Made by a program: the position numbers and the translations under genes | The notes under the pieces: generated by a model | Databases searched by the model: none | Told to the model about the DNA's origin: nothing | Seen by the model: only the letters and a program-made list of their open reading frames with translations | Shown here: positions 29,510 through 46,912 of the stretch, one piece after another | How the letters are laid out: each line of letters starts with the position of its first letter | Numbering within the stretch: the first letter of the stretch is position 1 | NCBI GenBank assembly: GCA_018969225.1 | Contig: JAGWYS010000003.1 | Coordinates: forward strand, 1 to 49,804 | Length of the DNA stretch: 49,804 nucleotides | Direction: 5' to 3' | Source: Gemmatimonadota bacterium | GTDB taxonomy: Bacteria; Gemmatimonadota; Gemmatimonadetes; Gemmatimonadales; Gemmatimonadaceae

Positions 29510-30085
29510 CTACGCCCCTTCCATCGCGTCCGCCAGCCACTCCACCACGTACGCCACGAACGACGGGCGCACCAGCAGGCGCCACGTGGGGGCGTCGTCC
29601 ACCAGCTGCAGCAGCACCGGCGCGCGACCCAGGAGCGTCTGCGTGGCGTGCCCCACCGGGAAGGCGCGCGGGTGCAGGTCCAGCGCGCACACGGCCGCCA
29701 GCACCTCGCGCGTGCGCGGCCCTGCCAGCTCCAGGCGATGCCGGCTGGCCGACAGCTCCACCACCGCGCCCTCCGCCTCCGGCGTCCCCTCGCGCACCGC
29801 CTCCGCGAGCGCGGCCACGAGCGCCCCGCGGGACGCCACCGGGGCCTCCACCAGCCACTCGTCCGGCCGGAGCCACGTCACCCGCCCTGCGGGCGCCTCC
29901 GCCATGGGGCCGTGCCCGGGGAGCGCCTCCAGCCCCAGGGCGGCGGCCACGCGCGCACGGGCCGCGCCCCGTGCCCGCACGCTCGCCATGAGGGGCAGCG
30001 GCAGCGCCCGCAGCGCGGCCGCGGGCGAGGACGCCGCGGTCATGCGCGCCACGATGGCCGGATCCACGGGGAGGCGCTCAGTCAC
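29510..30085 (-). CDS. soxG: Sarcosine oxidase gamma subunit family protein
   Basis: 191 aa. It has the GcvT-like fold of the gamma subunit: WLRPDEWLVEAPVASRGALVAALAEAV, VELSASRHRLELAGPRTREVLAAVCALDLHPRAFPVGHATQTLLGRAPVLLQLVDDAPTWRLLVRPSFVAYVVEWLADAM. This small subunit stabilises the heterotetramer and helps form the tetrahydrofolate side of the enzyme. The GTG start at 30085 overlaps the TGA of soxA (GTGA), and it is the last gene of the 11-gene unit. Sequence conservation is lower than in the other subunits, so the call rests partly on context. Confidence 0.88.
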   Translation of the reverse strand: MTERLPVDPAIVARMTAASSPAAALRALPLPLMASVRARGAARARVAAALGLEALPGHGPMAEAPAGRVTWLRPDEWLVEAPVASRGALVAALAEAVREGTPEAEGAVVELSASRHRLELAGPRTREVLAAVCALDLHPRAFPVGHATQTLLGRAPVLLQLVDDAPTWRLLVRPSFVAYVVEWLADAMEGA

Positions 30086-32916
30086 CGGTCGTCCGCGCCA
30101 TCGCGCCGCGCCCCCTCGGGATCGTAGTGCACCGGGTCCACCAGGGTCACCGATGCCACCCGCCCGTCCAGGAGGGGGGCGTGCAGCACCTCGCCCAGCC
30201 GCGCGCGGCCGTCGCGCACCAGCGCGAGGCCCAGGGCGCACGCCAGCGTCGGGCTGTAGCGGCTGCTGGACACGTGCCCGTCGATGGGCATCGGCGGCGC
30301 CCCGGGCGCGCGGGTGAGCGCCGCGCCTTCGGGCACCACCAGCTGCGGGTCGTTGGACCGGAAGCCGACCAGCTGCGCCCGACCGCGGGCCCGGAGCGCG
30401 TCGCGTTCGAGGGAGCGGCGTCCCACGAACGCCTTGCGCGCGGGCACCATCCACCCGAGCCCCGCGTCGTGCGGGGTGGTGAGCGCCTCGGTGTCCTGCC
30501 CCACGATGAGGTACCCCTTCTCGATGCGCAGCACCTGCAGCGCATCCAAGCCGTACGGCGTCACCCCCAGCGTGGCGCCCTCGGCCAGCAGCGCCCCCCA
30601 GAGCGCGGGCCCGTCGTGCCACGGGACGCTCACCTCGAACGCCAGCTCGCCGGAGAAGGAAACGCGCGCCACCTGCGCGTCGGCAATGCCGGCCACCGTC
30701 GCGGTGCGCACCGCCAGGAAGGGGAAGGCGTCCCGGTCCACCGCCAGCCCGGGGGCCACGCGCGCGAGCAGCGTGCGCGCGGCGGGACCGGCGATGGCCA
30801 CGGTGGTGAACTGCTCGGTGATCAAGGTCACCCAGCAGCGCCGGTCGGGCCACTCCGTCTGCAGCCACTCCTCCATCCACTCGCCCACCGCGGCCGCGTG
30901 CCCGGTGGAGGTGGTCACGAAGTACCGGTCCGCGCCGGTGCGCATCACCACGCCGTCGTCCAGGACGGACCCGTCGAGGTGACAGAGCACGGCGTAGCGC
31001 GCCTTCCCCTCGGGGAGCGAGGCCAGCGGCGTGACATAGAGCTGGTCGAGGACCCACCCCGCATCGGGGCCGCGCACGTCCAGCTTCCCAAGCGTGGAGA
31101 CATCGGCCAGCCCGACGCCGGTGCGCACCGCCCGCACCTCGCGCCGCACCGTGTCGTCGGACGTCTCCCCCGGGCGGGGATAGCGCGACGCCCGCAGCCA
31201 CTGCCCCGCGGGCTCGAACACGGCCCCCAGCGCCTGGTGCGCGGCGTGCAGCGCGGTGGTGCGCACGGGGTCGAAGCGGGCCCCCTGCGCGCGGCCAGCC
31301 ACCAGGTGGAAGGGGATCGGCTCCACCGGCGGCCGGCTGCCCGACGTGCCCACCACGGAGGCCGGGTGGCCCGCGCGCTCGGCCACCAGCGCGGCGGCCA
31401 GCACCTTGGCGGCGCGCCCCTGCTCCACGCCGGTCCCCACCAGCGTGTAGCGCTTCACATGCTCCACGTGGGTGGCGCCCGCGTCCACCGCGCGCCGGAT
31501 ACCGGCCACCGTCGCGTCGCGGTGCAGGTCCACGAAGCTGCGCGACTCGTCGCCGTCAGGGGCGGGCACCTGCCACGTCAGCCCGGGCGGATCCTCCCCG
31601 ACGTCGTCCGTGGCAGGCGCCATCACCGCGCCCGACCGCCCCAGCGCCGCGCGCGCTGCGGTGGCGCCCTGGGTGAGCGCCTCCGCGAGCGTCCACCCGC
31701 CGGTCACGGCGCCGGCCAGCCACTGTCCCGGCAGCGGCGCCGCCGGCACCGCCGTGCCCAGCCGCGCCTCGTAGCGGCTGGCGCCGCCCAGGTGCAGGTG
31801 CAGGTGCAGGTTGGGGTCGTGCCCCGCGGAGGTGGCCAGCAGGTCGGTCTCGAGCGTGAGGGTCCCGTCGCCGGCCCGCACGCGGACGGCACACAGCGCC
31901 CCCTCGGCGTCGGCGTCGGTCCCCACCACCTGGGCCCCGTCCAGCACCCGGACCCCCGCGGCGCGCACGGCGGCGCGCAGCGGGCCGTCGCCCGGGGGGC
32001 GCAGGTCGATCACGGCGGCCACCGGCACCCCGGCCTCGTGCCACGCCAGCGCCGTGCGATAGGCGTCATCGTGCGCGGTGAACAGCACGCCGCACGCGGG
32101 CGCCAGCGCCCACTGCCGCAGGTAGTGGCGCGCGGCGCCGGCCAGCATGATCCCGGGGCGATCGTTGTCGGGGAACACCAGCGGGCGCTCCAGCGCGCCG
32201 GTGGCCAGCACGATGGCGCGCGCGCGCACCTGCCACAGCCGCTGCTCGGGCACGGTCCCGCGCGCGGCCCCGGGGAGCCCGGCCCCCACGCGCTGGGCCA
32301 GCCACATGCCGTTCTGGTCGAGGGGCATCACGGCCGTGGTGCCGGTGAGCACCGTCACCTCGGGCGCCGCCTCCAACTCGCGTTCCGCGGCGGCCAGCCA
32401 CGCCTCGGCGGGGGCGCCGTCGATCGCCCGCGCCTCCCGCCGGAGCGCGCCGCCAAGCCTCGGGGCGCACTCGGCCACGATCACCCGCGCGCCGGCGCGC
32501 GCCCCTTCCAGGGCGGCCGCCAGCCCCGCCGGCCCGCCGCCCACCACCAGCAGGTCGCAGTGGGCGTATCGCCGGTCGAAGCGCGCCGTGTCGCGCGCCG
32601 CGACCAGCGCCCCCCGCACGATGCGCCCGTGCGCCGACAGCCCTTCCTGCAACGGCAGCGCCGTCGTGCGCACGAGCGGCTCCGCCACGGGGGGACGGTG
32701 GACCTGCGTGAAGCCGGTGGCCTCCTCCAGCCCGGCGCTCATGATGCCGCGCGGCCGTCCCGCGGACACGCTGGCGCCGAGCACGCGCACCCCGGCCCCC
32801 AGCAGCGCCGACGCGAGCGTGTCGCCGGCGAAGCCGGCGAGGGGCGCGCCGTTCCAGGTGAACGCCAGCGTCCGGCTCCGGTCGATCCCCAGGCCACCCG
32901 CCGGGAGGCGCCTCAC
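30082..32916 (-). CDS. soxA: Sarcosine oxidase alpha subunit
   Basis: 944 aa, normal length (950-1000). The N-terminal ferredoxin-like fold (about 15-75, FTWNGAPLAGFAGDTLASALLGAGV...PRGIMSAGLEEATGF) lacks iron-sulphur Cys, as usual. An FAD/NAD-binding domain follows with VVGGGPAG at 124-131 and ATGALERPLVFPDNDRPGIMLAGAAR. The C-terminal half is a GcvT aminomethyltransferase domain (KLDVRGPDAGWVLDQLY...; SFSGELAFEVSVPWHDGPALW; LRIEKGYLIVGQDTEALTTPHDAGLGWMV). With SoxB, D and G it oxidises sarcosine to glycine and transfers the methyl carbon to tetrahydrofolate. The GTG start overlaps the soxD stop (GTGA). A short Leu-His run reflects a CAGGTG repeat. Confidence 0.96.
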   Translation of the reverse strand: MRRLPAGGLGIDRSRTLAFTWNGAPLAGFAGDTLASALLGAGVRVLGASVSAGRPRGIMSAGLEEATGFTQVHRPPVAEPLVRTTALPLQEGLSAHGRIVRGALVAARDTARFDRRYAHCDLLVVGGGPAGLAAALEGARAGARVIVAECAPRLGGALRREARAIDGAPAEAWLAAAERELEAAPEVTVLTGTTAVMPLDQNGMWLAQRVGAGLPGAARGTVPEQRLWQVRARAIVLATGALERPLVFPDNDRPGIMLAGAARHYLRQWALAPACGVLFTAHDDAYRTALAWHEAGVPVAAVIDLRPPGDGPLRAAVRAAGVRVLDGAQVVGTDADAEGALCAVRVRAGDGTLTLETDLLATSAGHDPNLHLHLHLGGASRYEARLGTAVPAAPLPGQWLAGAVTGGWTLAEALTQGATAARAALGRSGAVMAPATDDVGEDPPGLTWQVPAPDGDESRSFVDLHRDATVAGIRRAVDAGATHVEHVKRYTLVGTGVEQGRAAKVLAAALVAERAGHPASVVGTSGSRPPVEPIPFHLVAGRAQGARFDPVRTTALHAAHQALGAVFEPAGQWLRASRYPRPGETSDDTVRREVRAVRTGVGLADVSTLGKLDVRGPDAGWVLDQLYVTPLASLPEGKARYAVLCHLDGSVLDDGVVMRTGADRYFVTTSTGHAAAVGEWMEEWLQTEWPDRRCWVTLITEQFTTVAIAGPAARTLLARVAPGLAVDRDAFPFLAVRTATVAGIADAQVARVSFSGELAFEVSVPWHDGPALWGALLAEGATLGVTPYGLDALQVLRIEKGYLIVGQDTEALTTPHDAGLGWMVPARKAFVGRRSLERDALRARGRAQLVGFRSNDPQLVVPEGAALTRAPGAPPMPIDGHVSSSRYSPTLACALGLALVRDGRARLGEVLHAPLLDGRVASVTLVDPVHYDPEGARRDGADDR

Positions 32917-33182
32917 GGGGAAGGCTCCGCGGGAGGCGCGCCCATCGGCCGCGTGTCCAGGATCGCGTGCGTGCGGGTGTCGCGCACCACGTGCATCCAC
33001 TGGCGGCAGCCGTGGACGTGCACCCACTGCTCGGTCACGGGCCCCAGCGGCGAGTCGCGCAGGTACAGCACGCGCGCCCACTCCGCGTCCGTGGCGTGCG
33101 CGGGGAGGGGCACGCCGGAGCCCGCGTGGCGGAACTCCACCTCGTCGCGGGGGCCGCAGTGGGGACAGGGGATGCGCAGCAT
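32913..33182 (-). CDS. soxD: Sarcosine oxidase delta subunit
   Basis: 89 aa. It begins MLRIPCPHCGPRDEVEFRHAG, the zinc-binding CPxCG motif of SoxD. It continues with DAEWARVLYLRDSPLGPVTEQWVHVHGCRQWMHVVRDTRTHAILDT, whose later Cys and His complete the zinc site. It is a structural subunit of heterotetrameric sarcosine oxidase. The ATG lies 1 nt after the soxB TAG stop. Confidence 0.95.
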   Translation of the reverse strand: MLRIPCPHCGPRDEVEFRHAGSGVPLPAHATDAEWARVLYLRDSPLGPVTEQWVHVHGCRQWMHVVRDTRTHAILDTRPMGAPPAEPSP

Positions 33183-33183
33183 G

Positions 33184-34398
33184 CTAGTGCGCCACCCCTG
33201 CGGCGCCATGCTCGTCCACGAGCGCGCCGGTGGTGAAGCGCTCCAGCCCGAAGGGCGCGGCCAGCGGGTGGGACGCGCCGGTGGCGAGCAGGTGCGCGAA
33301 CACCACCCCCGACCCCGGGGTGGCCTTGAAGCCCCCCGTGCCCCAGCCGCAGTTGAGGAACAGGGCGTCCACCGGCGTGGCGCCGATGATGGGGGCCGCG
33401 TCGGGGGAGACGTCCACCGTGCCGGCCCACACGCGCAGCAGGTGCGCGCGCGCCATGATGGGGTACAGCTCCAGCGCCGCCTGCAGCTGCTGCTCCAGGA
33501 TGTGCGACGAGCCGCGCTGCGCGTACGACCGGTAGGGATCGCGGGCGGCGCCCATGACCAGCTCCCCCTTGTGCGCCTGGCTCACGTACATGTGCAGGCG
33601 CCCCGACAGCGCGACGCACGGAAGGAACGGCTCGTGGATGTCCGAGACCAGCGCCTGCAACGGGTAGCTCTGGACGGGGACCTCGAGGCCGGCGAGGCGG
33701 GCCAGCAGCGGGGTGCGCCCGGCGCCCACCAGCCCCACCCGGCTGGCCCCGATGTCGCCCCGCGTGGTCCGCACGCCGGTGACGCGGTTGCCGTCGCGCA
33801 GGAACCCGGTGACCTCGCACCCCTGCAGGAGGTGGACGCCGGCGGCGTCGCAGGCGCGCGCCAGGTGGAACACGACCGCGTCATGGCGCGCGATCCCGCC
33901 GCGCGGCTGGAGCGCGGCGCCGCAGACCGGATAGCGCGGCGCGTCGGAGATGTCCAGGATGGGGCACAGGCGGGGCAGGTCCTCGCGCGGCACCCACTCG
34001 GCGTCGATGCCGGCCATGCGATTCGCGTACACCACCCGCTGCGCCGCGGCCGCCTCCGCCTGCGAGTGGGCCAGGGTGAGCAGCGAGCGCTGGTCGAAGA
34101 GGATCTCCGGGCCCAGCTCCTCCGGCCACCGCTCCCACCGGCGCACGCAGAAGTCGTAGAGCGGCATGCTCTCTTCGCGCAGGTAGTTGGAGCGGATGAT
34201 CGTGGTGTTGCGCACCGCGTTGCCGTTGCCCAGCCAGCCGCGCTCCACCACGGCCACGCTGGCGAGGCCGTGCTCGGTGGCCAGGTGGTAGGCGGTGGAG
34301 AGCCCGTGCAGCCCCCCGCCCACCACGATGATGTCGTAGTGGGCCCGGGGCTCGGGATGGCGCCACAGGAGGGGCGGGTTGCGGAAGGCCTGTTCCAC
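33184..34398 (-). CDS. soxB: Sarcosine oxidase beta subunit
   Basis: 404 aa. The FAD motif GGGLHG is at 28-33 in YDIIVVGGGLHGLSTAYHLA. It is followed by GWLGNGNAVRNTTIIRSNYL and RGGIARHDAVVFHLARACDAAGVHLLQ, typical of SoxB, with FLNCGWGTGGFKATPGSG near the C-terminus. This subunit holds the catalytic flavins that oxidise sarcosine to an imine. The start is the GTG at 34398, 7 nt after the alpha/beta hydrolase stop; no clear Shine-Dalgarno is seen. The gene order soxB-D-A-G is the classical one, but glyA and folate genes usually linked to it are absent. Confidence 0.96.
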   Translation of the reverse strand: MEQAFRNPPLLWRHPEPRAHYDIIVVGGGLHGLSTAYHLATEHGLASVAVVERGWLGNGNAVRNTTIIRSNYLREESMPLYDFCVRRWERWPEELGPEILFDQRSLLTLAHSQAEAAAAQRVVYANRMAGIDAEWVPREDLPRLCPILDISDAPRYPVCGAALQPRGGIARHDAVVFHLARACDAAGVHLLQGCEVTGFLRDGNRVTGVRTTRGDIGASRVGLVGAGRTPLLARLAGLEVPVQSYPLQALVSDIHEPFLPCVALSGRLHMYVSQAHKGELVMGAARDPYRSYAQRGSSHILEQQLQAALELYPIMARAHLLRVWAGTVDVSPDAAPIIGATPVDALFLNCGWGTGGFKATPGSGVVFAHLLATGASHPLAAPFGLERFTTGALVDEHGAAGVAH

Positions 34399-34405
34399 AG
34401 GGGGG

Positions 34406-35572
34406 CTAGCGGGCGGGTTCGCTGGGCACGCGGGAAGCTAATGCGCGGCGCACCGCCCCGACCACGGTCTCCGGGTGCTCGTAGGGGTAGTTGTGGGACG
34501 ACCCCGCCGGCGGGCGGATCAGCTCCGCCCGCCTGGACACGGCCAGGTAGCGCACCCGCGACCGCCCGAAGAAGTTGGCGGCCCGCGAGGTCAGCGCCGG
34601 GGGGAGCCCCATCGCCCGGATCTCCTCCTCGGCCCCTCCTTCCGGGATCACCACGAACACTGGCAGCGCGTCCAGCTCCCCGTCGTACACCACCAGATCG
34701 GGGGCCTCGCGCCCCACGACCGGCGCGGTGAATTCCTCGAAGATCGACGCCACGGCAAAGCCGTTCGCCGAGCGCCCGTCCCCCGCGCGCATCGCCGCGC
34801 GCACCTCGGCCAGCAGCGTGTCGCGCGCGCGGGCAAACGCCGGCGCCTTGGGCCCCGGGCGCGGGCGCGGCGTCCACAACCCGAACGCGCTCAGCACCCC
34901 CTGCGTCTGCCCCTGCCGAACCAGCCCCGCCGCCGCCGCCGCGCCAAACACCGGCGCATACACGAACGCGTCGGGCGGGGTGGCGTCCAGCAGCACCACG
35001 GCGGCGGTGCGCTCCGGATACCGCCGCGCGAAGTTGGCCGCCAGCAGCCCCCCGTACGAATGCCCCACCAGCACGAACGGTCCGGGCTCCCCGGCGTTCT
35101 TCAGCAGCGCGGCCAATTCCTCCGCCTCCACCCGCGTGCGCCGGGGAAACGGCCCGGGATCGCTCCACCCCGTCCCCGCCCGATCGAACAGGATGGACCG
35201 GGTCTCGCCGCGCATCGCCCGGTGCAGGTGGTACATGGCGTTCCCCTGCTCATGCGCGCCGGGAATCCACACCACCGTGGCTCCGCCGCGCGCATCCCCC
35301 TCGGCCAGCAGGTGCAGCGCAAAGCCGCCCACGTCCACCCGCTTCCCCGGCGGCGGTGCGGCGGCCATGGCACCGCGCTGCGCCATGCCCCCCTTGATGC
35401 CCATGGCGGTGAGCACCACGCCCGTCAGCAGCAGCGCCATCGCCCCCGTGCGCGCCACCCGGCCGCGCCGGCGCACCACCCACCAGGCCAGCACCCCCAG
35501 CGTCAGCAGCGCCGCGCCCACGGCCGCCCCGCCAAAGGGGCGCGACAGCACGGCATACAGGGCGTTCTGCAT
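34406..35572 (-). CDS. Membrane-anchored alpha/beta hydrolase
   Basis: 388 aa. Two N-terminal membrane helices (about 10-32 and 42-62) carry a short cytoplasmic RRRGR loop, then an alpha/beta-hydrolase fold: GATVVWIPGAHEQGNAMYHLHRAM, LFDRAGTGWSDPGPFPRRT and the nucleophile elbow VGHSYGG with Ser172. SSHNYPYEHPETVV near the C-terminus carries the probable catalytic His. Members hydrolyse esters, lactones or amides. The ATG overlaps the dipeptidase stop by 1 nt (TGATG), placing it inside the peptidase-sarcosine oxidase unit. The substrate is unknown. Confidence 0.85.
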   Translation of the reverse strand: MQNALYAVLSRPFGGAAVGAALLTLGVLAWWVVRRRGRVARTGAMALLLTGVVLTAMGIKGGMAQRGAMAAAPPPGKRVDVGGFALHLLAEGDARGGATVVWIPGAHEQGNAMYHLHRAMRGETRSILFDRAGTGWSDPGPFPRRTRVEAEELAALLKNAGEPGPFVLVGHSYGGLLAANFARRYPERTAAVVLLDATPPDAFVYAPVFGAAAAAGLVRQGQTQGVLSAFGLWTPRPRPGPKAPAFARARDTLLAEVRAAMRAGDGRSANGFAVASIFEEFTAPVVGREAPDLVVYDGELDALPVFVVIPEGGAEEEIRAMGLPPALTSRAANFFGRSRVRYLAVSRRAELIRPPAGSSHNYPYEHPETVVGAVRRALASRVPSEPAR

Positions 35573-36906
35573 CAGGCCCCCCCGGGCGGGGGCGCCGGAC
35601 GGGACCCGCCGTCCAGCGCCTCGATGGTGGCGGTGGAGGGCTCCCGCGTGCGGCGCAGCCGCGCCGCCACCCGCTCCACCTGCGTGAACACCCGCATGAG
35701 GTTCCCGCCCGCCAGCTTCCGCAGGTCGGCGTCGCTCCACCCGCGGCGCATCAACTCCGCGAACAGCGCGGGATAGCGCGACACATCCTCCATCCCCTCC
35801 ACCACGTTCATCGGCCCCGTGGCACCGTAGAAGTCCGCGCCGATTCCCACATGATCCGCCCCCGCCACGCGGCGAATGTGGTCGATGTGATCGGCGAGGT
35901 CCTTGAGGGTGGCGCGCGGCATCGGCCCGTGCGTGGCGGTCCACTCGCGCACCAGCCGCTCGGCGGCGCTGTCGCTGGTGGCGCGCTGCAGCCGCGGGAT
36001 GAGCCCCTCCGACCAGCGCCGCAGCGGCTCGGAGACGAACACCGTCACGAAGTTCACCTGCACCACCCCGCCGTTGCGGGCCATGCGGCGCAGGATCGAG
36101 TCGGGGACGTTGCGCACGTGGTCGGTGAGCGCGCGCGCCGAGGAGTGCGAGAAGATCACCGGGGCCTCGGACACGTCCAGCACCGCGCTCATGGCCGCCG
36201 GGGACACGTGCGAGATGTCCACCATCATCCCCAGCCGGTTCATCTCGCGCACCACCTCGCGTCCGAAGGGGGAGAGCCCGCCGTGGCGCGGGATGGCGGT
36301 GGCGGCATCGGCCCAGTCGGTGTTGGCGAAGTGCGTGAGCGTCATGTACCGCACGCCCAGGTCATAGTAGGCCCGCAGCGCCCCCAGCGAGTTGCCGATG
36401 ACGTGTCCCCCCTCGGCCCCCAGCAGCGAGGCGATCCGCCCGCTGGCGCGCACCCGCCGGATGTCGGCGGTGCTGGCGGCGAACCCGAGGTCGCGCGGGT
36501 AGCGCGCGATGAGGCGGCGCGCCAGGTCGATCTGCTCCAGCTGCGCGCGCATCGCCTCGAAGGGCGCCAGGTCGCTGGGGACATACACCGACCAGAACTG
36601 CGTGCCCACCCCGCCCTCGTGCAACTTGGGGAGGTCGGTGTCGCCGCCCCCGCGCTGCCGCAGGTCGCGCGCCGCCAGATCCATGGGGTGGGCCGGGTCC
36701 AACCGCAGCACCCACGGCAGGTCGTTGTGCGTGTCCACCAGCCCCACCTCGCGCAGCAGCGCCCGCGCGCGGCGGAGGGCGGCATCCTCACGGACGACAC
36801 GGGGGGCGGCACCCGCCGGCGCATGCTGCGCCATGATCGGCGACGCCCATAGGGACGCCACCGCCACCCCCGCCGCCACGCCACGGACGCGCCACACCGC
36901 GGTCAT
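35572..36906 (-). CDS. Exported membrane-dipeptidase family (M19) peptidase
   Basis: 444 aa. A signal peptide ends near SPIMAQHA. Zinc ligands follow the renal dipeptidase pattern: H60-x-D62 in VDTHNDLPW, Glu in LLGAEGGHVIGNSL, and His in MMVDISHVSPAAMS and IFSHSSARAL; HVGIGADFYGA supplies the late Asp. M19 enzymes hydrolyse dipeptides, including those with a C-terminal D- or non-standard residue. The ATG overlaps the upstream hydrolase stop (ATGA). It probably works on peptides released by the S9 and DUF885 peptidases encoded upstream in the same unit. Confidence 0.94.
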   Translation of the reverse strand: MTAVWRVRGVAAGVAVASLWASPIMAQHAPAGAAPRVVREDAALRRARALLREVGLVDTHNDLPWVLRLDPAHPMDLAARDLRQRGGGDTDLPKLHEGGVGTQFWSVYVPSDLAPFEAMRAQLEQIDLARRLIARYPRDLGFAASTADIRRVRASGRIASLLGAEGGHVIGNSLGALRAYYDLGVRYMTLTHFANTDWADAATAIPRHGGLSPFGREVVREMNRLGMMVDISHVSPAAMSAVLDVSEAPVIFSHSSARALTDHVRNVPDSILRRMARNGGVVQVNFVTVFVSEPLRRWSEGLIPRLQRATSDSAAERLVREWTATHGPMPRATLKDLADHIDHIRRVAGADHVGIGADFYGATGPMNVVEGMEDVSRYPALFAELMRRGWSDADLRKLAGGNLMRVFTQVERVAARLRRTREPSTATIEALDGGSRPAPPPGGA

Positions 36907-38395: not shown

Positions 38396-40708
38396 TCACG
38401 GACGCAGATGCCGCACGAAGAACAGCGTGCGCTGCTCGTCGTTGTAGCGGGCGGTCTGCCCGGCCTGCCCGTGCCCCGAGTTGGCGAACACCGACAGGTC
38501 GTGCTGCAACCCCAGCCGCACCAGCTCCTCGGACATGCGCATCGTCTCGGGGAAGGTGGCCACGTCGCTGAGGCCGCTCATCAGGCGCAGGTGGCCGCGC
38601 ACCTTGGGGGCCAGCAGGATGGCGTTGGCCTGATCGTACAGCGCCGCATTCTGCTGCGGGAGCCCCAGGTACGTTTCGTACAGCTGGTTCCCCACGGGAT
38701 CGAAGCCGGGGACCTCCACGGAGGCCGCCCCGTACAGGTCGGGAGCCTGCGCCAGCGCGCGGAGGGCATAGTGGCCGCCCCAGGAGCGCCCCCAGATCCC
38801 GACGCGCGTCAGATCCAGGAAGGGGAGCCGCGCCCCCAGCTGGCGGATGGCGCCGGCGTGGTCGGCAATCTCGAAGGTGCCCCACGCGCGGTAGACCACG
38901 TCGTGAAAGGCCTTCGACCGTCCCGGCGTGCCGCGGCCGTCCAGCGTGACCACCACGAACCCGAGGTTGGCCAGCGCACGGTTGTACGTGGAGGTGGAGG
39001 GCCCCGGGTCGCCGAAGGTGACCGGGCGCACGGCGATCTGCGGCCCCGCGTAGAGGAACTCCACCACCGGGTACGTGCGCGTGCTGTCGAAGTCGAAGGG
39101 GAGGTACATGGTGACCCACAGGTCCGTGTTCCCGTCGGCCGCCTTCACCACGTACTCGCGCGGGGGGGTCCACCCCACGCGGCGCAGCCGGTCGATGTTG
39201 GCCTCCCCCAGCACCCTCACCAACGTGCCGTCGGTGCGACGCAATTCGGTGCGGGGGGGCGTGGCGGGGGACGACCAGCTGTCCACGAAGCAGTCGGCCG
39301 CGGGACACATCGTCACCTCGTGCACCCCGGCCCCCTCGGTGAGCCGCTGCGACGCGCCCCCGCCCGCCAGGGACGCGCGGTACAGGTGCCGGTCGTACGG
39401 GCGCGCCGGGTCCCCCTGCGCCATGAAGTACACCCACCCGCGCGCCTGGTCCACGCGCACCACCGACGTCACCGGATAGCTCCCCTGCGTGATCCGCGCC
39501 ACAAGGCGCCCCGCAAGGTCGTACCGGTACAGGTGGTCCCAGCCGTCGCGCTCCGAGCGCCAGAGGAACCCCGAGCCGTCGGGGAGCAGCGTCCACGGAA
39601 AGTCGTCCCCCCACACCACCTCGTGATGATTGGTGAGGAAGGTGGGCGACCGCTCGGCCAGGATCACCCGCGCCTCCCCCGTGGACGGGTCGGCGGACCA
39701 CACCTCCACCCCGTGCAGCAGCCGGTCGTACTTGGCGACCAGCACCCGCGACTCGTCGGGGAGCCACCCCATGAACTCCAGGTAGCTGTCGCGCGTGTCC
39801 CCCAGCCGCAGCGTCACGGGGCGCCCCCACACCACGTCCAGCACGTGCAGCGACGGCACGGGGAGCTCCCCCCCGGCCCGCGTCCACCGCGTTTCCAGCG
39901 GCTCCACGAACATCTTGAGCCATTGCGCACCCCACATCGTCTGCAGGCCGCGCACGTCGCTGCGCTGCGCCACGAAGCGCGTCCCGCTGGGGGACCACGG
40001 TTCCCATCGGCGCGTTTCCACGGTCCACAGCGAGTCGGCGCTGCCGTCGGTGGTGCGCAGGAGCGTCCGCCCGTCGGTCGCCGAGCGCAGGGCGATGTCG
40101 TATCCCTGCACGCCGAGGTACCAGCGGCCGTCGGGCGAGCGGCGCTCCAGGTTGCGCGTCTCCCCGCCGCCGGTGAAGGACTCCTGCCAGAACGCCTGCG
40201 GGCGCTGCCGCGTCAGCTCGCTGGTGGCCAGGCGGTCCCCCTCGTTGGCCGTGGGGCGCGGCAGCCGGGTCAGCGCATAGGTGGCGAGGTCCAGCTGCCA
40301 GCTGTCCCCCTCCAGCTCGAAGCGCAGCTGTTGCGGCGCGGTGAACGCCACCTGGGCAAACGGCACCCCCCGGCCGGCAGGCTCGTCGCCCAGCTGCTCG
40401 ACAAGGGCGCGGCGGAGTCGCTCGGCATCCAGCAGCGGCGCCTTGCGTCCGGTCGCCAGCTCCACACGCTGCAGGACGCGGTCATTGGGGCCACCCTCGG
40501 CGTACCAGAGGCTGGTCCCGCCGGGGATCCACCCAGGCACCACTCGCCCGCCCCGCACCAGGTTGTCGAAATCCAGATAGGCGTGGTACGCGGCGCGGCG
40601 CGCCGATTCGACGGGCGCCGGCTGCGCAGCCAGGGGGACGGTCACCCCCGCGAACGCCGCAGCCACCATCGCCGTGGACAGGACAGGGGCACGGAGGGAC
40701 GGTTGCAC
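38396..40708 (-). CDS. Exported S9-family prolyl oligopeptidase (dipeptidyl peptidase IV type)
   Basis: 770 aa. A signal peptide (about 1-28) is followed by the DPP-IV-type N-terminal propeller (SPDGRWYLGVQGYDIALRSAT, WLPDESRVLVAKYDR, FLWRSERDGWDHLYRYDLAGRL) and the C-terminal catalytic domain: FVVVTLDGRGTPGRSKAFHDVVY and GIWGRSWGGHYAL with Ser642, with the late His in NSGHGQAGQT. DPP-IV enzymes remove N-terminal dipeptides after Pro or Ala. The GTG at 40708 starts the signal peptide. It lies 47 nt after the DUF885 gene in the same unit. Confidence 0.92.
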   Translation of the reverse strand: MQPSLRAPVLSTAMVAAAFAGVTVPLAAQPAPVESARRAAYHAYLDFDNLVRGGRVVPGWIPGGTSLWYAEGGPNDRVLQRVELATGRKAPLLDAERLRRALVEQLGDEPAGRGVPFAQVAFTAPQQLRFELEGDSWQLDLATYALTRLPRPTANEGDRLATSELTRQRPQAFWQESFTGGGETRNLERRSPDGRWYLGVQGYDIALRSATDGRTLLRTTDGSADSLWTVETRRWEPWSPSGTRFVAQRSDVRGLQTMWGAQWLKMFVEPLETRWTRAGGELPVPSLHVLDVVWGRPVTLRLGDTRDSYLEFMGWLPDESRVLVAKYDRLLHGVEVWSADPSTGEARVILAERSPTFLTNHHEVVWGDDFPWTLLPDGSGFLWRSERDGWDHLYRYDLAGRLVARITQGSYPVTSVVRVDQARGWVYFMAQGDPARPYDRHLYRASLAGGGASQRLTEGAGVHEVTMCPAADCFVDSWSSPATPPRTELRRTDGTLVRVLGEANIDRLRRVGWTPPREYVVKAADGNTDLWVTMYLPFDFDSTRTYPVVEFLYAGPQIAVRPVTFGDPGPSTSTYNRALANLGFVVVTLDGRGTPGRSKAFHDVVYRAWGTFEIADHAGAIRQLGARLPFLDLTRVGIWGRSWGGHYALRALAQAPDLYGAASVEVPGFDPVGNQLYETYLGLPQQNAALYDQANAILLAPKVRGHLRLMSGLSDVATFPETMRMSEELVRLGLQHDLSVFANSGHGQAGQTARYNDEQRTLFFVRHLRP

Positions 40709-40755: not shown

Positions 40756-42594
40756 TCAGCGCGCGCCCTGCTGGGCGAGCCAGGCGTCCACGCGCTGCTC
40801 CAGCGCAAAGAAGGGCAGCGGGCCGTCCCCCAGGATGACCTGGTGGAAGGCCTTGGGATCAAAACGGGGCCCCAGCGCGCGCTCGGCCCGCGCGCGCAGC
40901 TCCTGGAAGGTGAGCATCCCCATGCGGTACCCCAGCGCCTGCCCGGGAATGTCGCAGCAGTAGCGCAGCACCTCCGAGGCCACCTCGGCGTCGGAGATGA
41001 CGGAGTTGGCGCGCAGGTACGCCAGCGCGCGCTCGTGGCTCCACCCCAGCAGGTTGAGCCCGGTGTCCAGCACCAGCCGCGCGGCGCTGTACAGCTCCAT
41101 GATGCGGCGCCCGTAGCGGTCGTAGGGGTCGCGGTAGCCGCCCATCGACTCGGCCAGCGCCGCGGCGTACTCGGCCCACCCCTCGGTGTACGCGGTGCTC
41201 GCGTAATTCCGTCGCAGGGGGTGCTTCGTCGCCAGCAGCTCCTGGACCAACGCGAGGTGGTAGTGGTGCCCGGGGAGGATCTCGTGGTACGCCAGCCCCT
41301 CGAACCACACCGTGGTCTTCTGCTCCAGCTGCCCGCCGTTGAAGAAGTACACCCCGGTGGAGTCGGTGGCGGAGGGTTGCCGATAGTACCCGTAGGTCAT
41401 CCCCGCCTCCAGCGCGGGGTCCAGCCGACGCACGTCATACGGCGCGCGGGGAACCACGGCAAACTGCTCCCCCAGGCGGGGGCGCAGCGTCGCCAGGTGC
41501 CCCAGCATCTTGTCGCGCACCACGTCGGGGGAGGACGGGACGAAACGCGGCGCGGTGCGCAGGTACCGGTGGAACGCCTCGCGCGTGGCGAACGCGCCGC
41601 CGCGGCCCAGCGTGCCGCGGATGGAATCCAGCTCGGCGGTGATGCGCGCGATCTCGCGGAGCCCCAGGGCGTGCACCTGCTCGGGGGTGCGGTCGATGGT
41701 GAGCGAGGCGCGCACCAGCCGACGGTACTGCGCCTCCCCCCCCGGGTACTGCGCCAACCCCACGGTCGCCGGGGCCGCCGCCAGGTACGGTCCCTCCAGC
41801 CAGCCAATCAGGCGGTCGAACGCCGGGTTCACCCGCTCGGTCACCTCGTCCGCCAACCGCCGCTCGAAGCGCGCCACCGCGGCGCTGTCCTGTGCGCGCA
41901 CCCCCCGCAGCCGAGCCTCCGCCACCGCCACCGGGCTGCGTGCGGGCTCGGCGCGGAACTGCCGCAGCAGCGTCAGCGCCGCGGCCACCTCGGGCTTGGG
42001 CATGCGATAGCCGTGGCGCTCCTGCCCCCGCAGGTAGGCATGCACCGCGTCCACCACCCCCGCATACTGCTCCGCAAGGTCCAGATACCGGTCCAGATCG
42101 GCCGGGGCCGCAACGCGGTGCGCCGACAGGATCCCGTGCACCGCGCCGAAGCCGTTGCCGTAGGGGGAGACGGGATTGTGAAACCAGTACCCGTCCCCCT
42201 CCGCCGCCAGCTCCGCCGCGCGGGCGCGCGTCACGGCGGCCAGGCTCCACGCCTCGCTCCCCACCGGCTGCGCGCCCGCGCTGTCCAGCTGCGCGAGGAT
42301 CCGCCGCCCCACGGCGGCATTCTCCTCGGCCTGGGCCACCGATGGCACCGGGAGGGTGCGCACGCTTGCCCCGGTGCGAAGCCGGGTGGCCGGGTCGGTG
42401 GCCATGATGCGCGCCCACAGCGCGTCGGCGATGGCGGTGATGCGGGCGCTGTCCCCGGATGCCACGCCCCCGGACGCGGTTCCCCGTCCGGTGCCCTGCG
42501 CCGCCCCGGGTGCCGGCACCACGACCGGCGCCAGCGCGGCGGCAAACAGGAGGGCGAAGGACGCGGGGGTCCGGGGGCGCGGGGGGGCGGCCAT
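40756..42594 (-). CDS. Exported DUF885-family metallopeptidase-like protein
   Basis: 612 aa. A signal peptide ends near GAAQGTG. The rest is all-helical with the DUF885 motif YHEILPGHHYHLAL (His437-Glu438...His443-His444), resembling the HExxH zinc site of M32-type carboxypeptidases, and YTEGWAEYAAALAESMGGYRDPYDRYG downstream supplies a likely third ligand Glu. YCCDIPGQALGYRMGMLTFQELR is also typical. Family members are probable metallocarboxypeptidases with little direct biochemistry. The ATG shares one base with the SusD stop (TAATG), so it is translationally linked to the SusCD transporter. Confidence 0.9.
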   Translation of the reverse strand: MAAPPRPRTPASFALLFAAALAPVVVPAPGAAQGTGRGTASGGVASGDSARITAIADALWARIMATDPATRLRTGASVRTLPVPSVAQAEENAAVGRRILAQLDSAGAQPVGSEAWSLAAVTRARAAELAAEGDGYWFHNPVSPYGNGFGAVHGILSAHRVAAPADLDRYLDLAEQYAGVVDAVHAYLRGQERHGYRMPKPEVAAALTLLRQFRAEPARSPVAVAEARLRGVRAQDSAAVARFERRLADEVTERVNPAFDRLIGWLEGPYLAAAPATVGLAQYPGGEAQYRRLVRASLTIDRTPEQVHALGLREIARITAELDSIRGTLGRGGAFATREAFHRYLRTAPRFVPSSPDVVRDKMLGHLATLRPRLGEQFAVVPRAPYDVRRLDPALEAGMTYGYYRQPSATDSTGVYFFNGGQLEQKTTVWFEGLAYHEILPGHHYHLALVQELLATKHPLRRNYASTAYTEGWAEYAAALAESMGGYRDPYDRYGRRIMELYSAARLVLDTGLNLLGWSHERALAYLRANSVISDAEVASEVLRYCCDIPGQALGYRMGMLTFQELRARAERALGPRFDPKAFHQVILGDGPLPFFALEQRVDAWLAQQGAR

Positions 42595-43871
42595 TACCGT
42601 CCGGCGAGGTTGGGGTTGGTGGTGCGCTCCAGGTCGGGGAGCGGAAAGCAGCGGTTGGTCCCGTAGAAGCCGCCGCCGAAGGGAAACGGTGCACCCGTGG
42701 CCGGCACGAAGGGAAGGGTGAGGCGCTGGTAGTCGCCCAGGTGCTGCGACTCCAGGAACAGCTCCGCCCGCCGCTCGTAGATGAGCTGGGCCCGCACGTC
42801 GGCCGCCGAGGTGGAGGCGAACGGGGGGAGTGCCGGGGTGGTGCGGGCGTGCAGCGTGTTGATGATGGCCACCGCCGCCGCGACGTTGCCGGCCGCCAGC
42901 TCCGCCTCGGCGATGATCAACTGCGCCTCCGCCCACTTGGCGATGGGGATGGAGGCGGCGAAGCTGGTGTACTTCCCCTGCAGGTACAGCGAGTCCGCGT
43001 TGTTGGCCCCGGTGCGATTGGCGTTGGTGACCGGCACGCGCGGGTCGCGCACCCCCTCGAACGTCATGGCCCGGTACACCGGCCCCACCGTGAGCCCCGC
43101 CCCCTGGTTGTTGTTGTTGAACACCGGGTTGAAGCGGCGGGGGTCGGCGGCCGAGAAGGTGGCGTTGCGGACATAGTTGGCGGGGACCTGCCGGGCATCG
43201 GCCGCCGCCTCCGGGAGACGGGCCAGGTTGAGGCGCGCGCGGGCGCGCCCCAGGTACGCCATGGGGAGGATGTCGGTGGCGTTGCTGGCCTGCGCGTCGG
43301 CAATGGCCGCCGTGAAGCGCTCCTCGGCGCGCGTCCACACCTGCGCCTTGGACAGCTCCGGCCCCGCGCTGACCGTGGCGGTGCACATCTGCTCGCCCAT
43401 CAGGAGCAGGGCATACCCCGCGTAGGCCGCGTTGGTGGCCAGCAGCTGGCGGCGGTTGGTCACCTGCGCGTCCGTCCACGATTCCAGCCCCTTCTGCAGC
43501 TCGCCGGAGAGCCAGAGGGTCACGTTGAGGGCGCCGAAGGGGCCCAGTCCGCCGCAGCCGCCGGTGCTGATGGTGGAGCTGGTGGCGATGTCGCGGCGAT
43601 CCACCTGCCAGGTGGTGTTGCCGGTGGAGCTGTTGGCCAGTTCGTCGCCCAGGGTGCCGCCGCCCACGACGGCGCCGCCGAAGGCGCATTCGAACTCGCC
43701 CACCACGGAGTTCATCAGGATGGCGGCGTTGGCGGGCACCACGGATCCGTCGGCGGGAACGCGGCTGGGGACGTCCACCTCCAGCAGGGTGCCGCAGGCC
43801 GCCGACGCGGCGAGGAGCGCGCACACGGCGGTGCGGGTCATGGCGCGGATGGCGCGCGAGCGGGGAGTCAT
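42594..43871 (-). CDS. SusD/RagB-family outer-membrane lipoprotein (pair 2)
   Basis: 425 aa. A signal with lipobox AASAAC precedes GTLLEVDVPSRVP. The helical body has SusD features (GYALLLMGEQMC, RARLNLARLPEAAADARQVP) and the C-terminal YERRAELFLESQHLGDYQRL plus GTNRCFPLPDLERTTNPNL. It is the lid/binding partner of the SusC at 43892-46912, 20 nt after its stop. RagAB-type pairs can import oligopeptides; here the downstream peptidases make a peptide substrate plausible. The start chosen is the ATG at 43871; a second in-frame ATG lies ten codons downstream. Confidence 0.9.
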   Translation of the reverse strand: MTPRSRAIRAMTRTAVCALLAASAACGTLLEVDVPSRVPADGSVVPANAAILMNSVVGEFECAFGGAVVGGGTLGDELANSSTGNTTWQVDRRDIATSSTISTGGCGGLGPFGALNVTLWLSGELQKGLESWTDAQVTNRRQLLATNAAYAGYALLLMGEQMCTATVSAGPELSKAQVWTRAEERFTAAIADAQASNATDILPMAYLGRARARLNLARLPEAAADARQVPANYVRNATFSAADPRRFNPVFNNNNQGAGLTVGPVYRAMTFEGVRDPRVPVTNANRTGANNADSLYLQGKYTSFAASIPIAKWAEAQLIIAEAELAAGNVAAAVAIINTLHARTTPALPPFASTSAADVRAQLIYERRAELFLESQHLGDYQRLTLPFVPATGAPFPFGGGFYGTNRCFPLPDLERTTNPNLAGR

Positions 43872-43891
43872 GAGGATGGGCACCGGGCGCC

Positions 43892-46800
43892 TCAGAAAGT
43901 CAGGTTGAGGGAGAACCGGACCTGCCGCGGGAGCGGCAGGTTCGCCTGCTCGCTGGCGGTGAGCTCGCCGAAGCCGCCCGGCTGTTCCGTCTCCGGGTCG
44001 AGCCCCGACCAGCGGGTCCACGTGTGCAGGTTGCGGCCGGCCAGCAGCAGCGAGGCGCGGGAGGCGCGCAGGCGCCGGGCGAGGACGTCGGGGAGGTCGT
44101 ACCCCAGCGAGACCTCGCGCAGCTTGGCGAAGGAGGCGTCGTTGATGAAGCCGCTGGTGAGCACCAGCGCGCTGCCGCGCTGCGCGTAGGCCACGTCGCG
44201 CGCGTCGAACTCCTGCGGGTAGTAGTTCTGCCGGCAGAGGCGGAACACGGTGCAGCGCGCCCAGAGGTTGGTGTCGAAGCGGCGCATCCCCTGGCGGAAG
44301 TCCACCAGGGTGTACAGGCGCAGCCGCCGCCCCAGGCGCACCGTGGAGGTCACCGCCCCTTCGTACTTGGGCGTGGAGCGCCCCAGGTAGGTGAGCGGCG
44401 CGGTGGCGCACGGCGCGGGGCCGCTGGGCGTTTCGCACTGCAGGTTGGTGGCCTGGCCGGTGCCGTCCAGGGTGGCGCTGGCCAGCCGCTGCCCGAAGAA
44501 GGCGGCCACGGGGTACCCCACGCGGTGCTGCTGGGCGCGGGGGAACGTGCCCACGAAGATGGGCGGTTGCCCCCCCAGGTCGGTGATCTCGTTCTCGTTG
44601 GAGTTGACGGTGGCGGTGAGGTCCCATCCCACGCGCTCGCCGGTGAGGACGGCCACCGTGGTGCGCAGCTCGAAACCGTCGTTGCGGATGGCCCCCAGAT
44701 TGGTGAAGCGGGTGCCGATGAAGCCGCTGGAGGGGGGGACCGGCGCCAGCACGATGGCATCGCGGCGGTTCTGCCGGAACCAGGTGAACTCCATCGCCAC
44801 CCGGTCCTGGAAGAGCCCGGCGTCGAAGCCCAGCTCCACCTCCGTGCCGCGCTCGGGGCGAAGGTCGGGGTTCCCCACCGCCTGGGTGGTGAGCGCCGGC
44901 TGGTCGCCGGGGCCGGTGACGGGCCCCAGCGTGCGGAGCGCCGCGAAGGCGTCGGGCTGCTGCCCCGCCGCGCCGTACGCGGCGCGGGCCTTGAAGGTGT
45001 TCACCACGCCCCCCTTCCACCAGGATTCCTCGCTGGCCACCCAGCTGCCGCTGATCTTGGGGTAGGTGGCCGCCTGGAAGTCGGTGCCAAAGGCGCTGTT
45101 GTTGTCCACGCGCACCGCGCCGGTGACGAAGACGCGGTTGCGCCACCCCAGCTGCTGCTGCGCGTAGGTGCCGATGGTGGTGTTCTCGATGTAATCGTCG
45201 CCGCCCGTGCGCACGGAGGTGCCCAGGATGGTGCTGAGCCCGGGCGCCGGGAACTGCTGGCCGCTGACGGTGGTGAAGCGGGTGAGGCGGCCGAAGTACT
45301 GCGCGCCCACGCTGGTCTGGCTGGTGAGCCCGTCGCGGAGGGTGGCGTTGTAGGTGGCGCTGTAGTCCAGCGTGTTGGTGCGCGCGTCGCGCAGCTGCAC
45401 GTCCTTGCGACCGGCCGCGACCGCCGGGCTGAAGAACCGGGCCTGGTCGGGGGTCATCCGACGCACGATGTTCTGGTTGTTCTCCTGCACCAGGTCGACG
45501 CCAAGGTTGAGGCGCTGGGTGAGGTGCCGCCCCGCCTGGTGCTGCAGCTGCCCGGACACGGTGGTGCGCTGGAGCAGCTGGAAGACGTCATACACGCCGT
45601 AGAGCACCTCCGGCGGCGCGGCGAAGAAGCCGCGACTGGGACCGCCCTGCGTGAGGGGGTTGGCGTTGACGGCGCTGAAGAGCGGCGCGCCGGCCCCCTC
45701 CTGCGGGGCGAAGGAGGTCTTGCCGGTCACCACCCCCAGGTCGACGCGCGCGGTGAGCGACGGGCGCGGCAGGAACTGGAGGTTGGCCCGCAGCGAGGAC
45801 TGGAGCTGGCGGTTGTTGAGGTCGATCCCCTCCTCGTCCTGCACGACGCCGCCCACGCGGTACGTGACCGGACCGGAGCCGCCGTCGATGCCCATGGCGT
45901 AGCGCTGGAACTGGCCGGTGCGCCAGATGGCGTTCCCGAGCGCGCGCTCGTTCTCCACGGCGTTGAACGAGAGGATCTGCCCCTGGGGCGAGCGCGCGTA
46001 GTTGGTGGGCAGGCGGCCGGCCGGGTTGTCGAACTCGTTGGTCCCCTGGTCGGCGGTGAAGGTGACGCGGGCCTTCTCGCCGGCGCGCCCGGCCTTGGTG
46101 ATGATCTGGATGACGCCGTTGGAGGCCTCGGTGCCGTAGAGGGTGGCGGCGGCGGGTCCCTTGATGATCTCAATGGACTCGATGTCGGCCGGGTTGACGT
46201 CGTTGAGGCGGGAGACGACGTTGGCGCCCTGGACCGCCGGGCCCGAGGCCTGCGCGGCGTCCACGCGGATGCCGTCCACGTACACGAGGGGCGCGCCGGT
46301 GAGGGCGAGGCTGTTGCGCCCGCGGATGTTGACCTTGGTGCCGGCGCCGGCCATGCCGGAGTTGGCGGTGAGGACGACGTTGGAGGCGCGGCCGTTCAGG
46401 AGCTGGGAGACGTCGGTGACGGGGGCGCGCTCGAGGGTGGCGCGCGCGTCCACCTTGGTGATGGCGTTGCCCACGGCGCGGCGCTCGACCGTGCCGGCGG
46501 TGCCGGTGACGACCACCTCATCCAGCTTGACGGAGAGCTCGGCCAGGGTGAAGGCGAGCGCGGCGCTCCCGGCGCCGACGGCGCGCGACTGGGCCTGGTA
46601 GCCGATGGCGGTGACGCGGACCGTCCGGGCGCCGGCCCCGAGGTCGGTGAGGCGGAAGCGGCCGCGGGCGTCGGTGAGCGCGAGGGCGGCGGTGCCGACC
46701 ACGGTGACGCGAGCGCCCTCGACAGGGCGGCCGCGCGCGTCGATGACGGTGCCCGTGATGGAGTCGGCCTGGAGGCGGGGGACGACCGCGGGGGCAGCCC

Positions 46801-46912
46801 CCGGTGCTGGCGGCGCGTCGGCGTGGGCGGGTGCCGCGGTGGCCGCGAGGAGGGCCAACCCGCCGCCCCAGAGCAGGGCGGTGACGTGGGCGTTTGGGCT
46901 GGGACGGGGCAT
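43892..46912 (-). CDS. SusC/RagA-family TonB-dependent outer-membrane transporter (pair 2)
   Basis: 1006 aa. A signal peptide ends near PAHADA. Next are a carboxypeptidase-regulatory-like domain (about 50-125, ITGTVIDARGRPVEGARVTVVG), a plug (about 145-280) with LLNGRASNVVL, GAPLVYVDGIRV and GPAAATLYGTEASNGVIQIITKAG, and a barrel ending in FSLNLTF. It is the first gene of the 11-gene unit. Its ATG lies 36 bp downstream of a palindrome shared with the divergent cytochrome P450 gene. It has no clear Shine-Dalgarno. Confidence 0.93.
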   Translation of the reverse strand: MPRPSPNAHVTALLWGGGLALLAATAAPAHADAPPAPGAAPAVVPRLQADSITGTVIDARGRPVEGARVTVVGTAALALTDARGRFRLTDLGAGARTVRVTAIGYQAQSRAVGAGSAALAFTLAELSVKLDEVVVTGTAGTVERRAVGNAITKVDARATLERAPVTDVSQLLNGRASNVVLTANSGMAGAGTKVNIRGRNSLALTGAPLVYVDGIRVDAAQASGPAVQGANVVSRLNDVNPADIESIEIIKGPAAATLYGTEASNGVIQIITKAGRAGEKARVTFTADQGTNEFDNPAGRLPTNYARSPQGQILSFNAVENERALGNAIWRTGQFQRYAMGIDGGSGPVTYRVGGVVQDEEGIDLNNRQLQSSLRANLQFLPRPSLTARVDLGVVTGKTSFAPQEGAGAPLFSAVNANPLTQGGPSRGFFAAPPEVLYGVYDVFQLLQRTTVSGQLQHQAGRHLTQRLNLGVDLVQENNQNIVRRMTPDQARFFSPAVAAGRKDVQLRDARTNTLDYSATYNATLRDGLTSQTSVGAQYFGRLTRFTTVSGQQFPAPGLSTILGTSVRTGGDDYIENTTIGTYAQQQLGWRNRVFVTGAVRVDNNSAFGTDFQAATYPKISGSWVASEESWWKGGVVNTFKARAAYGAAGQQPDAFAALRTLGPVTGPGDQPALTTQAVGNPDLRPERGTEVELGFDAGLFQDRVAMEFTWFRQNRRDAIVLAPVPPSSGFIGTRFTNLGAIRNDGFELRTTVAVLTGERVGWDLTATVNSNENEITDLGGQPPIFVGTFPRAQQHRVGYPVAAFFGQRLASATLDGTGQATNLQCETPSGPAPCATAPLTYLGRSTPKYEGAVTSTVRLGRRLRLYTLVDFRQGMRRFDTNLWARCTVFRLCRQNYYPQEFDARDVAYAQRGSALVLTSGFINDASFAKLREVSLGYDLPDVLARRLRASRASLLLAGRNLHTWTRWSGLDPETEQPGGFGELTASEQANLPLPRQVRFSLNLTF

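Follow-up and report, generated by a model that had tools for sequence, protein, structure and literature searches.

A stretch of 49,804 nt from the genome of a Gemmatimonadota bacterium (GCA_018969225.1, contig JAGWYS010000003.1; hereafter the window) contains a block of 13 genes that joins a SusCD-type outer-membrane importer and a set of exported hydrolases to the four genes of a sarcosine oxidase (soxBDAG), with a divergent cytochrome P450 gene and an IclR-type regulator gene at one end. These 13 genes are best explained as a single regulated catabolic unit: their order is kept as a block, the divergent promoter region holds a shared palindrome, the segments with catalytic motifs are intact, and the genes are under purifying selection. 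Import of an N-methyl peptide followed by the release of sarcosine is the best single reading of their function, with the chances of its being correct about even. In this little-cultured phylum, a conserved SusCD-peptidase-sox operon with its own candidate operator points to a nutrient that has gone unrecognised and is most likely an N-methyl peptide. The operator, the regulator, SusD, and SoxBDAG offer handles for identifying it.

Conservation and borders of the block

The genome of the window (G000; 3.8 Mb, 86% complete) belongs to a Gemmatimonadota genus of which 30 genomes were sampled. An initial annotation, made from the sequence of the window alone, had described eleven minus-strand genes at 29510-46912 in the order SusC-SusD-DUF885-S9-(SRPBCC+hydrolase)-M19-hydrolase-soxB-D-A-G, without a gap above 47 nt. 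All eleven were found in this order and on this strand, the largest junction measuring 47 nt (from SusC to soxG: 20, -1, 47, 29, -4, -1, 7, 1, -4, and -4 nt). Eight of the ten junctions are identical in the related genome G109, where the other two measure 98 and 18 nt with the start codons as chosen. The proposal of a single unit is well supported by the conservation of the block, but the unit had been drawn too small, as the divergent P450 and IclR genes (47068-49182) were overlooked.

Within the genus, soxB is present in four of the 30 genomes (G000, G109, G138, and G069), and the block order is the same in all four. The adjacency of SusCD to the sox genes in relatives, which the initial annotation had named as a check, is kept wherever soxB occurs in the genus (4/4). 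The full block of 13 genes is contained in G000 and G109; in G138 and in G069, where it lies on two contigs, it is cut within soxA by contig ends, and soxG is accordingly seen only in the first two genomes. A full-length SRPBCC-hydrolase is found in the same four genomes as soxB, and three other genomes of the genus contain partial matches to its hydrolase domain (31–35% identity). DNA homology to G109 extends from position 29510, the stop of soxG, to 49091 within the IclR gene, and homology to G138 reaches 49186. The flanking genes for a gamma-glutamyltransferase, a nucleotidyltransferase, and a DUF2911 protein have no match in G109. The first of these (26476-28296, plus strand) lies just past the 3' end of the sox genes; its membership in the unit was ruled out by the lack of a match past soxG in G109, G138 and G069 being uninformative here as their contigs end before soxG. 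A chance adjacency or a chimeric contig was also ruled out, since three other assemblies of the genus share the order and all 13 genes are under purifying selection, with pairwise ratios of nonsynonymous to synonymous divergence (dN/dS) of 0.06–0.26 (for soxG from one pair only). A scan of positions 29000-47500 for sigma-70-type promoters returned no site, which carries no weight either way as shuffled sequences gave 0.3, and the three terminator-like sites in this interval are uninformative (3.1 in shuffles).

Synonymous divergence (dS) between G109 and G138 is 0.23–0.54 for the 12 block genes compared and 1.01 for trmD. In a TrmD tree of 28 of the 30 genomes, the four carriers are not grouped, except for G069 with G109, and support is weak elsewhere. 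Together with the differing flanks, the lower dS and the tree of this one marker gene are suggestive of a horizontal spread of the block within the genus.

Genes of the block

The SusC and SusD genes form a pair in the accepted sense, a SusC/RagA-type barrel adjoining a SusD-family lipoprotein, with both proteins above the family cut-offs (Table 1). Over the longest matched stretch, SusC orthologues share 90–92% identity in the three other same-genus genomes, and an orthologue in G054, a genome of another genus, shares 68%. The N-termini of the downstream proteins are compatible with exported hydrolases and a cytoplasmic sarcosine oxidase. In the DUF885 protein, for which 3o0y is the closest solved structure (E = 1e-49), the motifs HExxPGHH and EGW(A/G)EY are kept in five of five aligned sequences, and in the M19 enzyme, closest to 3id7 (E = 6e-114), the segments THND, EGGH, SHVS, and SHSSAR are kept in four of four. 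The SRPBCC-hydrolase fusion corresponds to two separate open reading frames (ORFs) in G054.

The S9 enzyme has the domain composition of DPP-IV, a catalytic domain with a DPPIV_N propeller, and the DPP-IV structures 5yp1 and 2ecf are its closest solved relatives. Its Ser (GRSWG), Asp, and His segments, which we take to be catalytic, are kept in all five aligned sequences. Aligned to 2ecf, the enzyme has V-E opposite E-E, again in all five sequences, so that a single glutamate of the double-Glu motif, with which DPP-IV holds the substrate N-terminus, is matched. The cleavage after proline that had been assigned to this enzyme is no more than plausible.

All four sarcosine oxidase subunit genes are present in B-D-A-G order, and judged from sequence the assignment to the heterotetrameric enzyme is strong in kind. 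The histidine of the GIA(K/R)HD motif of SoxB, presumably the site of the covalent flavin mononucleotide, is kept in four of four aligned sequences. SoxB residues 7-404 align without a gap to the solved beta subunits 1vrq, 3ada, and 2gag (E = 1e-154 to 1e-156), and SoxA contains a full GCV_T folate domain, most sensible with one-carbon release; both findings make it improbable that SoxBDAG acts on another secondary amino acid from imported peptides, such as N-methyl-alanine or proline. This alternative draws on the S9- or S15-family hydrolases found upstream of sox in several genera and on a side activity of the sarcosine oxidase family towards imino acids, as in the monomeric enzyme of Bacillus, which uses L- and D-proline with a kcat/Km of about 1/1900 and 1/400 of that for sarcosine (PMC12582975, in excerpt).

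Table 1. Features of the block and its divergent promoter region, with positions in the window and profile matches (bit scores; cut-offs in brackets where given).
Feature	Position	Strand	Basis and remarks
SusC/RagA-type TonB-dependent outer-membrane transporter, 1006 aa, signal peptide	43892..46912	-	TIGR04056, 429 bits (368)
SusD-like lipoprotein lid, 425 aa, lipobox AASAAC (by eye)	42594..43871	-	PF07980, 29.8 bits (23.1)
DUF885 protein, exported, candidate metallopeptidase	40756..42594	-	PF05960, 389 bits (32.4)
S9/DPP-IV-like serine peptidase, exported	38396..40708	-	PF00930 DPPIV_N, 143 bits; PF00326 Peptidase_S9, 104 bits
SRPBCC + alpha/beta hydrolase fusion, exported	36903..38366	-	PF10604, 26.8 bits, below cut-off (27.4); PF00561 (Abhydrolase_1), 63.6 bits, and PF12697, both over cut-off
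M19 renal-dipeptidase-type dipeptidase, exported	35572..36906	-	PF01244, 373.5 bits
Membrane-anchored alpha/beta hydrolase	34406..35572	-	PF12697 (Abhydrolase_6), 52.4 bits; hydrophobic segments around residues 15 and 45
soxB, sarcosine oxidase beta subunit	33184..34398	-	TIGR01373, 530.3 bits (529.45, barely exceeded)
soxD, delta subunit	32913..33182	-	TIGR01374, 88.1 bits (116.5); alternative start 33209
soxA, alpha subunit with folate-binding GCV_T domain	30082..32916	-	TIGR01372, 945.5 bits (1164); GCV_T, 231 bits; SO_alpha_A3, 81.5 bits
soxG, gamma subunit, 3' border of conserved block	29510..30085	-	PF04268, 69.9 bits (21); NCBIfam, 113.6 bits (143.95)
Cytochrome P450, divergent, part of block	47068..48246	+	PF00067, 89.5 bits
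IclR-type regulator, other border of block	48352..49182	+	PF01614/PF09339
Candidate IclR operator, TCTCATATATTGAGA	46950..46964		exact palindrome TCTCA-N5-TGAGA, divergent SusC<>P450 intergenic region
Further half-site, AGTCTCATAT	after the palindrome at 46950..46964		SusC<>P450 intergenic region

Candidate operator and linkage of the two modules

The palindrome TCTCATATATTGAGA is aligned and conserved in G109 and G138 and is also present in G069, and exact TCTCA-N5-TGAGA occurs at one site only per genome in G000, G109, and G138. Base composition would yield about 0.4 such exact sites in each genome, and the weight of the palindrome therefore rests on its position and conservation. An exact copy lies between the IclR gene (57% identity) and the SusC orthologue in G054, and another directly upstream of the IclR gene beside soxBDAG in G188, a genome of another family. 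Across sox-linked and neighbouring loci totalling 335 kb, four exact palindromes were found (three of them being one site in three genomes) vs. 0.0 in ten block shuffles. Exact palindromes outside this system number two in G044 and one each in G141, G054, and G188, and none was found in G113 and G017. The motif read backward, as a control, gave no site in nine of ten genomes and three sites in G054. Palindromes with one mismatch were not above chance and were dropped as evidence. A further exact palindrome in G069 stands behind a short IclR-like ORF and ahead of genes for a gamma-glutamyltransferase and for an M19 dipeptidase, an arrangement resembling that of glutathione-type peptide use (L141:1512-5398, G069:C60).

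IclR orthologues are encoded at all five SusCD loci of this type, i.e. those of the four genus genomes and of G054; an IclR gene adjoins sox in G188, G044, G141, and G017, and in the G113 cluster one lies ~8 kb away from soxB. From this linkage we infer that the regulator binds TCTCA-N5-TGAGA. The curated models that it matches best, each with a score short of the cut-off, are BhcR (116.7 bits; cut-off 350), PcaR/PcaU, KdgR, IclR, and AllR. Because BhcR is the best model, and BhcR, IclR, and AllR respond to glyoxylate (PMC11323563, in excerpt), a glycine- or glyoxylate-related ligand may be guessed.

In G054, an orthologous SusC-SusD-DUF885-S9-SRPBCC-hydrolase run (52–69% identity in the core) and soxBDAG, the latter behind an S9 peptidase, lie on different contigs; the SusCD-hydrolase and sox modules are therefore separable. 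Such a separation in relatives, which the initial annotation had given as a sign against its proposal, was thus seen in G054 and in none of the four genus genomes with soxB. Candidates in the 179 genomes of the family were searched for SusD with at most nine scored per genome, and the five best matches were the window locus and its orthologues (70–100% identity), the next sharing 50%. All five genomes with a SusD of at least 70% also encode a SoxB of at least 69%, which is found in seven of 148 family genomes (three more have a relative at 39–41%). As the species are related, this co-occurrence is support and not a probability.

The main rival explanation is that two nutrient modules share one regulator: SusCD and the hydrolases would serve the use of ordinary or D-amino-acid peptides and soxBDAG that of free environmental sarcosine, the two being co-regulated as both feed the glycine, one-carbon, and nitrogen supply. 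It is consistent with the G054 run without adjacent sox, with the IclR genes beside sox but without a SusCD of this type in G188, G044, G141, and G017, with the muropeptide-type enzymes adjoining related SusCDs (see below), and with the glyoxylate-responsive regulators among the below-cut-off matches of IclR. The two modules are, however, always together within the genus, and all five SusD-bearing genomes of the 179 hold a close SoxB, so that we consider this explanation unlikely on balance.

Across the phylum sample, a close SoxB is encoded in 13 of 395 genomes. In each of the seven SoxB genomes of the window's family, the run of same-strand genes includes an S9 or S15/CocE gene upstream of sox. 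In G113 (genus g14), one strand carries a CocE/S15 hydrolase, a SusC-like gene, a weak SusD (PF07980, 22.3 bits; cut-off 23.1), and soxBDAG, the SusC-like and weak SusD genes standing directly before soxB; an amino-acid permease and an IclR gene are on the opposite strand. The loci L016:10674-15216 (G113) and L022:2233-11716 (G141) come from two genera and share the CocE/S15 hydrolase (80% mutual identity) and the amino-acid permease (86%) beside sox and IclR, although the two SoxB proteins fall into separate groups (70% and 41% identical to that of the window, respectively). The idea that sox has convergently gained proline-specific peptidases as neighbours was at first favoured but was weakened by the assignment of the S15 neighbour to CocE/NonD by NCBIfam and by the abundance of S9 genes. 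A second family contributes six of the 13 genomes; of these, G403 was compared by blast to the reference set only, and G240 was left out of the annotation. Among 80 public sox loci, mostly from actinobacteria, 16 have some IclR match, weak (26–36% identity) except in a G113-type record.

Nature of the imported compound

SusCD loci are mostly interpreted as glycan loci. Pfam and NCBIfam scans found no carbohydrate-active enzyme family among the 13 block genes, and a glycan or polysaccharide utilisation locus was ruled out on this basis. The next-best SusD matches comprise eight proteins at 47–50% identity, of which six loci were fetched and the neighbours scanned at five. In all five, a peptidase or beta-lactamase-fold hydrolase lies downstream of SusD (an S13 D,D-carboxypeptidase in one, a beta-lactamase+M15 fusion in two, and a beta-lactamase in the remaining two, with S9 behind it in one case and located at a contig end in the other), and an amino-acid permease is nearby in three. 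Because related SusCDs precede such enzymes, peptides, perhaps with D-residues, are the favoured cargo class by analogy. Where the enzymes alone are not decisive, the cargo of a SusCD may be approached in this way, via co-conserved regulator sites and the neighbours of related SusCDs. One of these loci, L199 (G000:C232:6001-20448), combines a related SusCD with the S13 D,D-carboxypeptidase, an enolase-superfamily enzyme, and DUF1552/DUF1592-type genes and looks like a muropeptide-use locus.

A betaine demethylation locus, or betaine as the source of sarcosine, is not supported, as no GbcA-type oxygenase was found: the sole Ring_hydroxyl_A protein detected in the 86% complete G000 scores 138.7 (cut-off 670), the stronger of two in G109 scores 163.1 (the weaker was left out), and G138 has none.

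If an N-methyl peptide is indeed the substrate, SusD and SusC would import a small peptide or depsipeptide through the outer membrane, and the exported DUF885, S9, M19, and SRPBCC-hydrolase proteins would cleave its peptide and ester or amide bonds in the periplasm. The membrane-anchored hydrolase may carry out a finishing step or handle a product passing the membrane. The freed N-methyl amino acid, most likely sarcosine, would then enter the cytoplasm via a permease encoded outside the locus, and SoxBDAG, as the putative terminal enzyme of the pathway, would convert it to glycine and methylene-tetrahydrofolate; the glycine-cleavage P protein is present. IclR, bound to TCTCA-N5-TGAGA, would sense the substrate or a product and control both the operon and the P450 gene, and the P450 may oxidise or dealkylate a side group. 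A more specific proposal, that the locus is dedicated to importing and degrading N-methylated peptides or depsipeptides that contain sarcosine, e.g. microbial non-ribosomal products, with SusCD, a periplasmic cascade, and a folate-linked Sox in one operon under one IclR operator, is possible though doubtful. If true, the block would be a means of eating the antibiotic-like peptides of other microbes, perhaps spread as a unit among the species of the genus. A sarcosine or other N-methyl residue in the imported compound, already suggested in the initial annotation, is no more than plausible, though it is the best single reading, and the example of actinomycin given there found no specific support.

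If the substrate were instead an N-methyl ester or amide that is not a peptide, for example an N-acyl sarcosine or a natural product of the carbamate or lactone type, the alpha/beta hydrolases and the P450 would do most of the work, and the peptidase-family proteins would serve as amidases or esterases. The presence of two alpha/beta hydrolases and a P450, the erythromycin-esterase-like gene in the G054 unit, and the CocE/NonD hydrolase in G113 would fit this explanation, as would the acceptance of non-standard substrates by the M19 and S9 families. As SusCD importers usually take up oligomers, and as related SusCD pairs sit with peptidases and amino-acid permeases, we regard it as improbable. 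The SusCD-hydrolase operon of G054 overlaps at its end with the erythromycin-esterase-like gene (L138:15929-17209; PF05139, 121 bits), a hint of an ester or lactone in the cargo.

Several observations weigh against the import and breakdown of an N-methyl peptide by this locus. Among solved structures, SusC comes closest to 8aa4, a SusC homologue that is not further specified, with RagA and BT_2264 ranking behind it, and the locus contains no inner-membrane permease. SoxA, SoxD, and SoxG score under the curated NCBIfam cut-offs, SoxG and the GCV_T domain being over those of Pfam. Genes for sox, M19, and P450 are all missing beside the G054 unit, where the erythromycin-esterase-like gene takes their place. 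The hydrolase beside sox in G113 is a CocE/NonD hydrolase over cut-off and not a proven X-Pro peptidase, and S9 genes near sox are weak evidence because they are common (18–61 per genome in ten genomes). In the second family, a digestive-type peptidase near sox was found at one locus, an S9 in G248; the Pfam-scanned sox neighbours of G188, G276, and G233 (three, three, and one) belong to other families, with one CAAX-type membrane protease in G188. One-mismatch palindromes, including those of G113 and G141, number four vs. 2.1 in shuffles and carry no weight. The AlphaFold models of the DUF885 protein and the SRPBCC-hydrolase were too poor and were discarded (mean predicted local distance difference test scores of 46.9 and 49.0, respectively).

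Known systems and neighbouring genes

Heterotetrameric sarcosine oxidase loci are associated with the use of free sarcosine. Compared with the known operons of this enzyme (glyA-soxBDAG and betaine demethylation islands), the block has the same soxB-D-A-G order and a SoxB near 1vrq/2gag, but its sox genes are combined with an operon of outer-membrane import and peptidase genes. One Streptomyces locus (L042) has the classical arrangement, with a serine hydroxymethyltransferase gene (glyA) and a GntR gene adjoining sox, and one Saccharopolyspora locus (L044) has a dimethylglycine-dehydrogenase-like gene, GntR, and an IclR gene ~2 kb past soxG. According to the partial text of PMC3691474, sarcosine oxidase loci are known for betaine use, and the sox island of Colwellia adjoins betaine demethylation genes.

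RagAB/BT2263-2264-type importers are similar in that a SusC/RagA-type transporter and a SusD lid stand beside peptidases, RagA and BT_2264 being among the solved SusC relatives; the block differs in its origin in Gemmatimonadota and in bringing along a set of exported hydrolases together with a cytoplasmic sarcosine oxidase, a P450, and IclR. RagAB is a peptide importer (PMC11817032, in excerpt), and an excerpt of PMC11658791 contains nothing on peptide import. Also similar are the SusCD-S13/enolase and SusCD-beta-lactamase/M15 loci of the family (e.g. G000:C232, G053:C47), which share a related SusCD (SusD at 48–50% identity) followed by peptidases; they differ in having other peptidases and no sox or IclR match in the fetched stretches, and they may be muropeptide users. 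The G054 locus has an orthologous core, an IclR of the same type, and the palindrome, and is set apart by the gene content noted above. P450 orthologues share 88–93% identity in G109, G138, and G069, with no match at the G054 locus. Among the matches listed in searches of the open-licence PubMed Central (PMC) literature, no paper joined SusCD with sarcosine oxidase, the SusC query returning mostly noise ('susceptible'), and none was found for Gemmatimonadota with sarcosine oxidase or for polysarcosine.

Elsewhere in the window, another oxidase, belonging to the N-methyl-tryptophan/monomeric sarcosine oxidase family, is encoded at 11138-12478 on the plus strand (NCBIfam, 150 bits; cut-off 257). 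Near it are genes for a second SusC-like receptor (6918-9941, minus strand) and a SusD-similar lipoprotein (5548-6885, minus strand), which has no Pfam match and shares 28–32% identity with the SusDs of the locus, and a tricorn-type protease (13537-16878) accompanies this oxidase and receptor.

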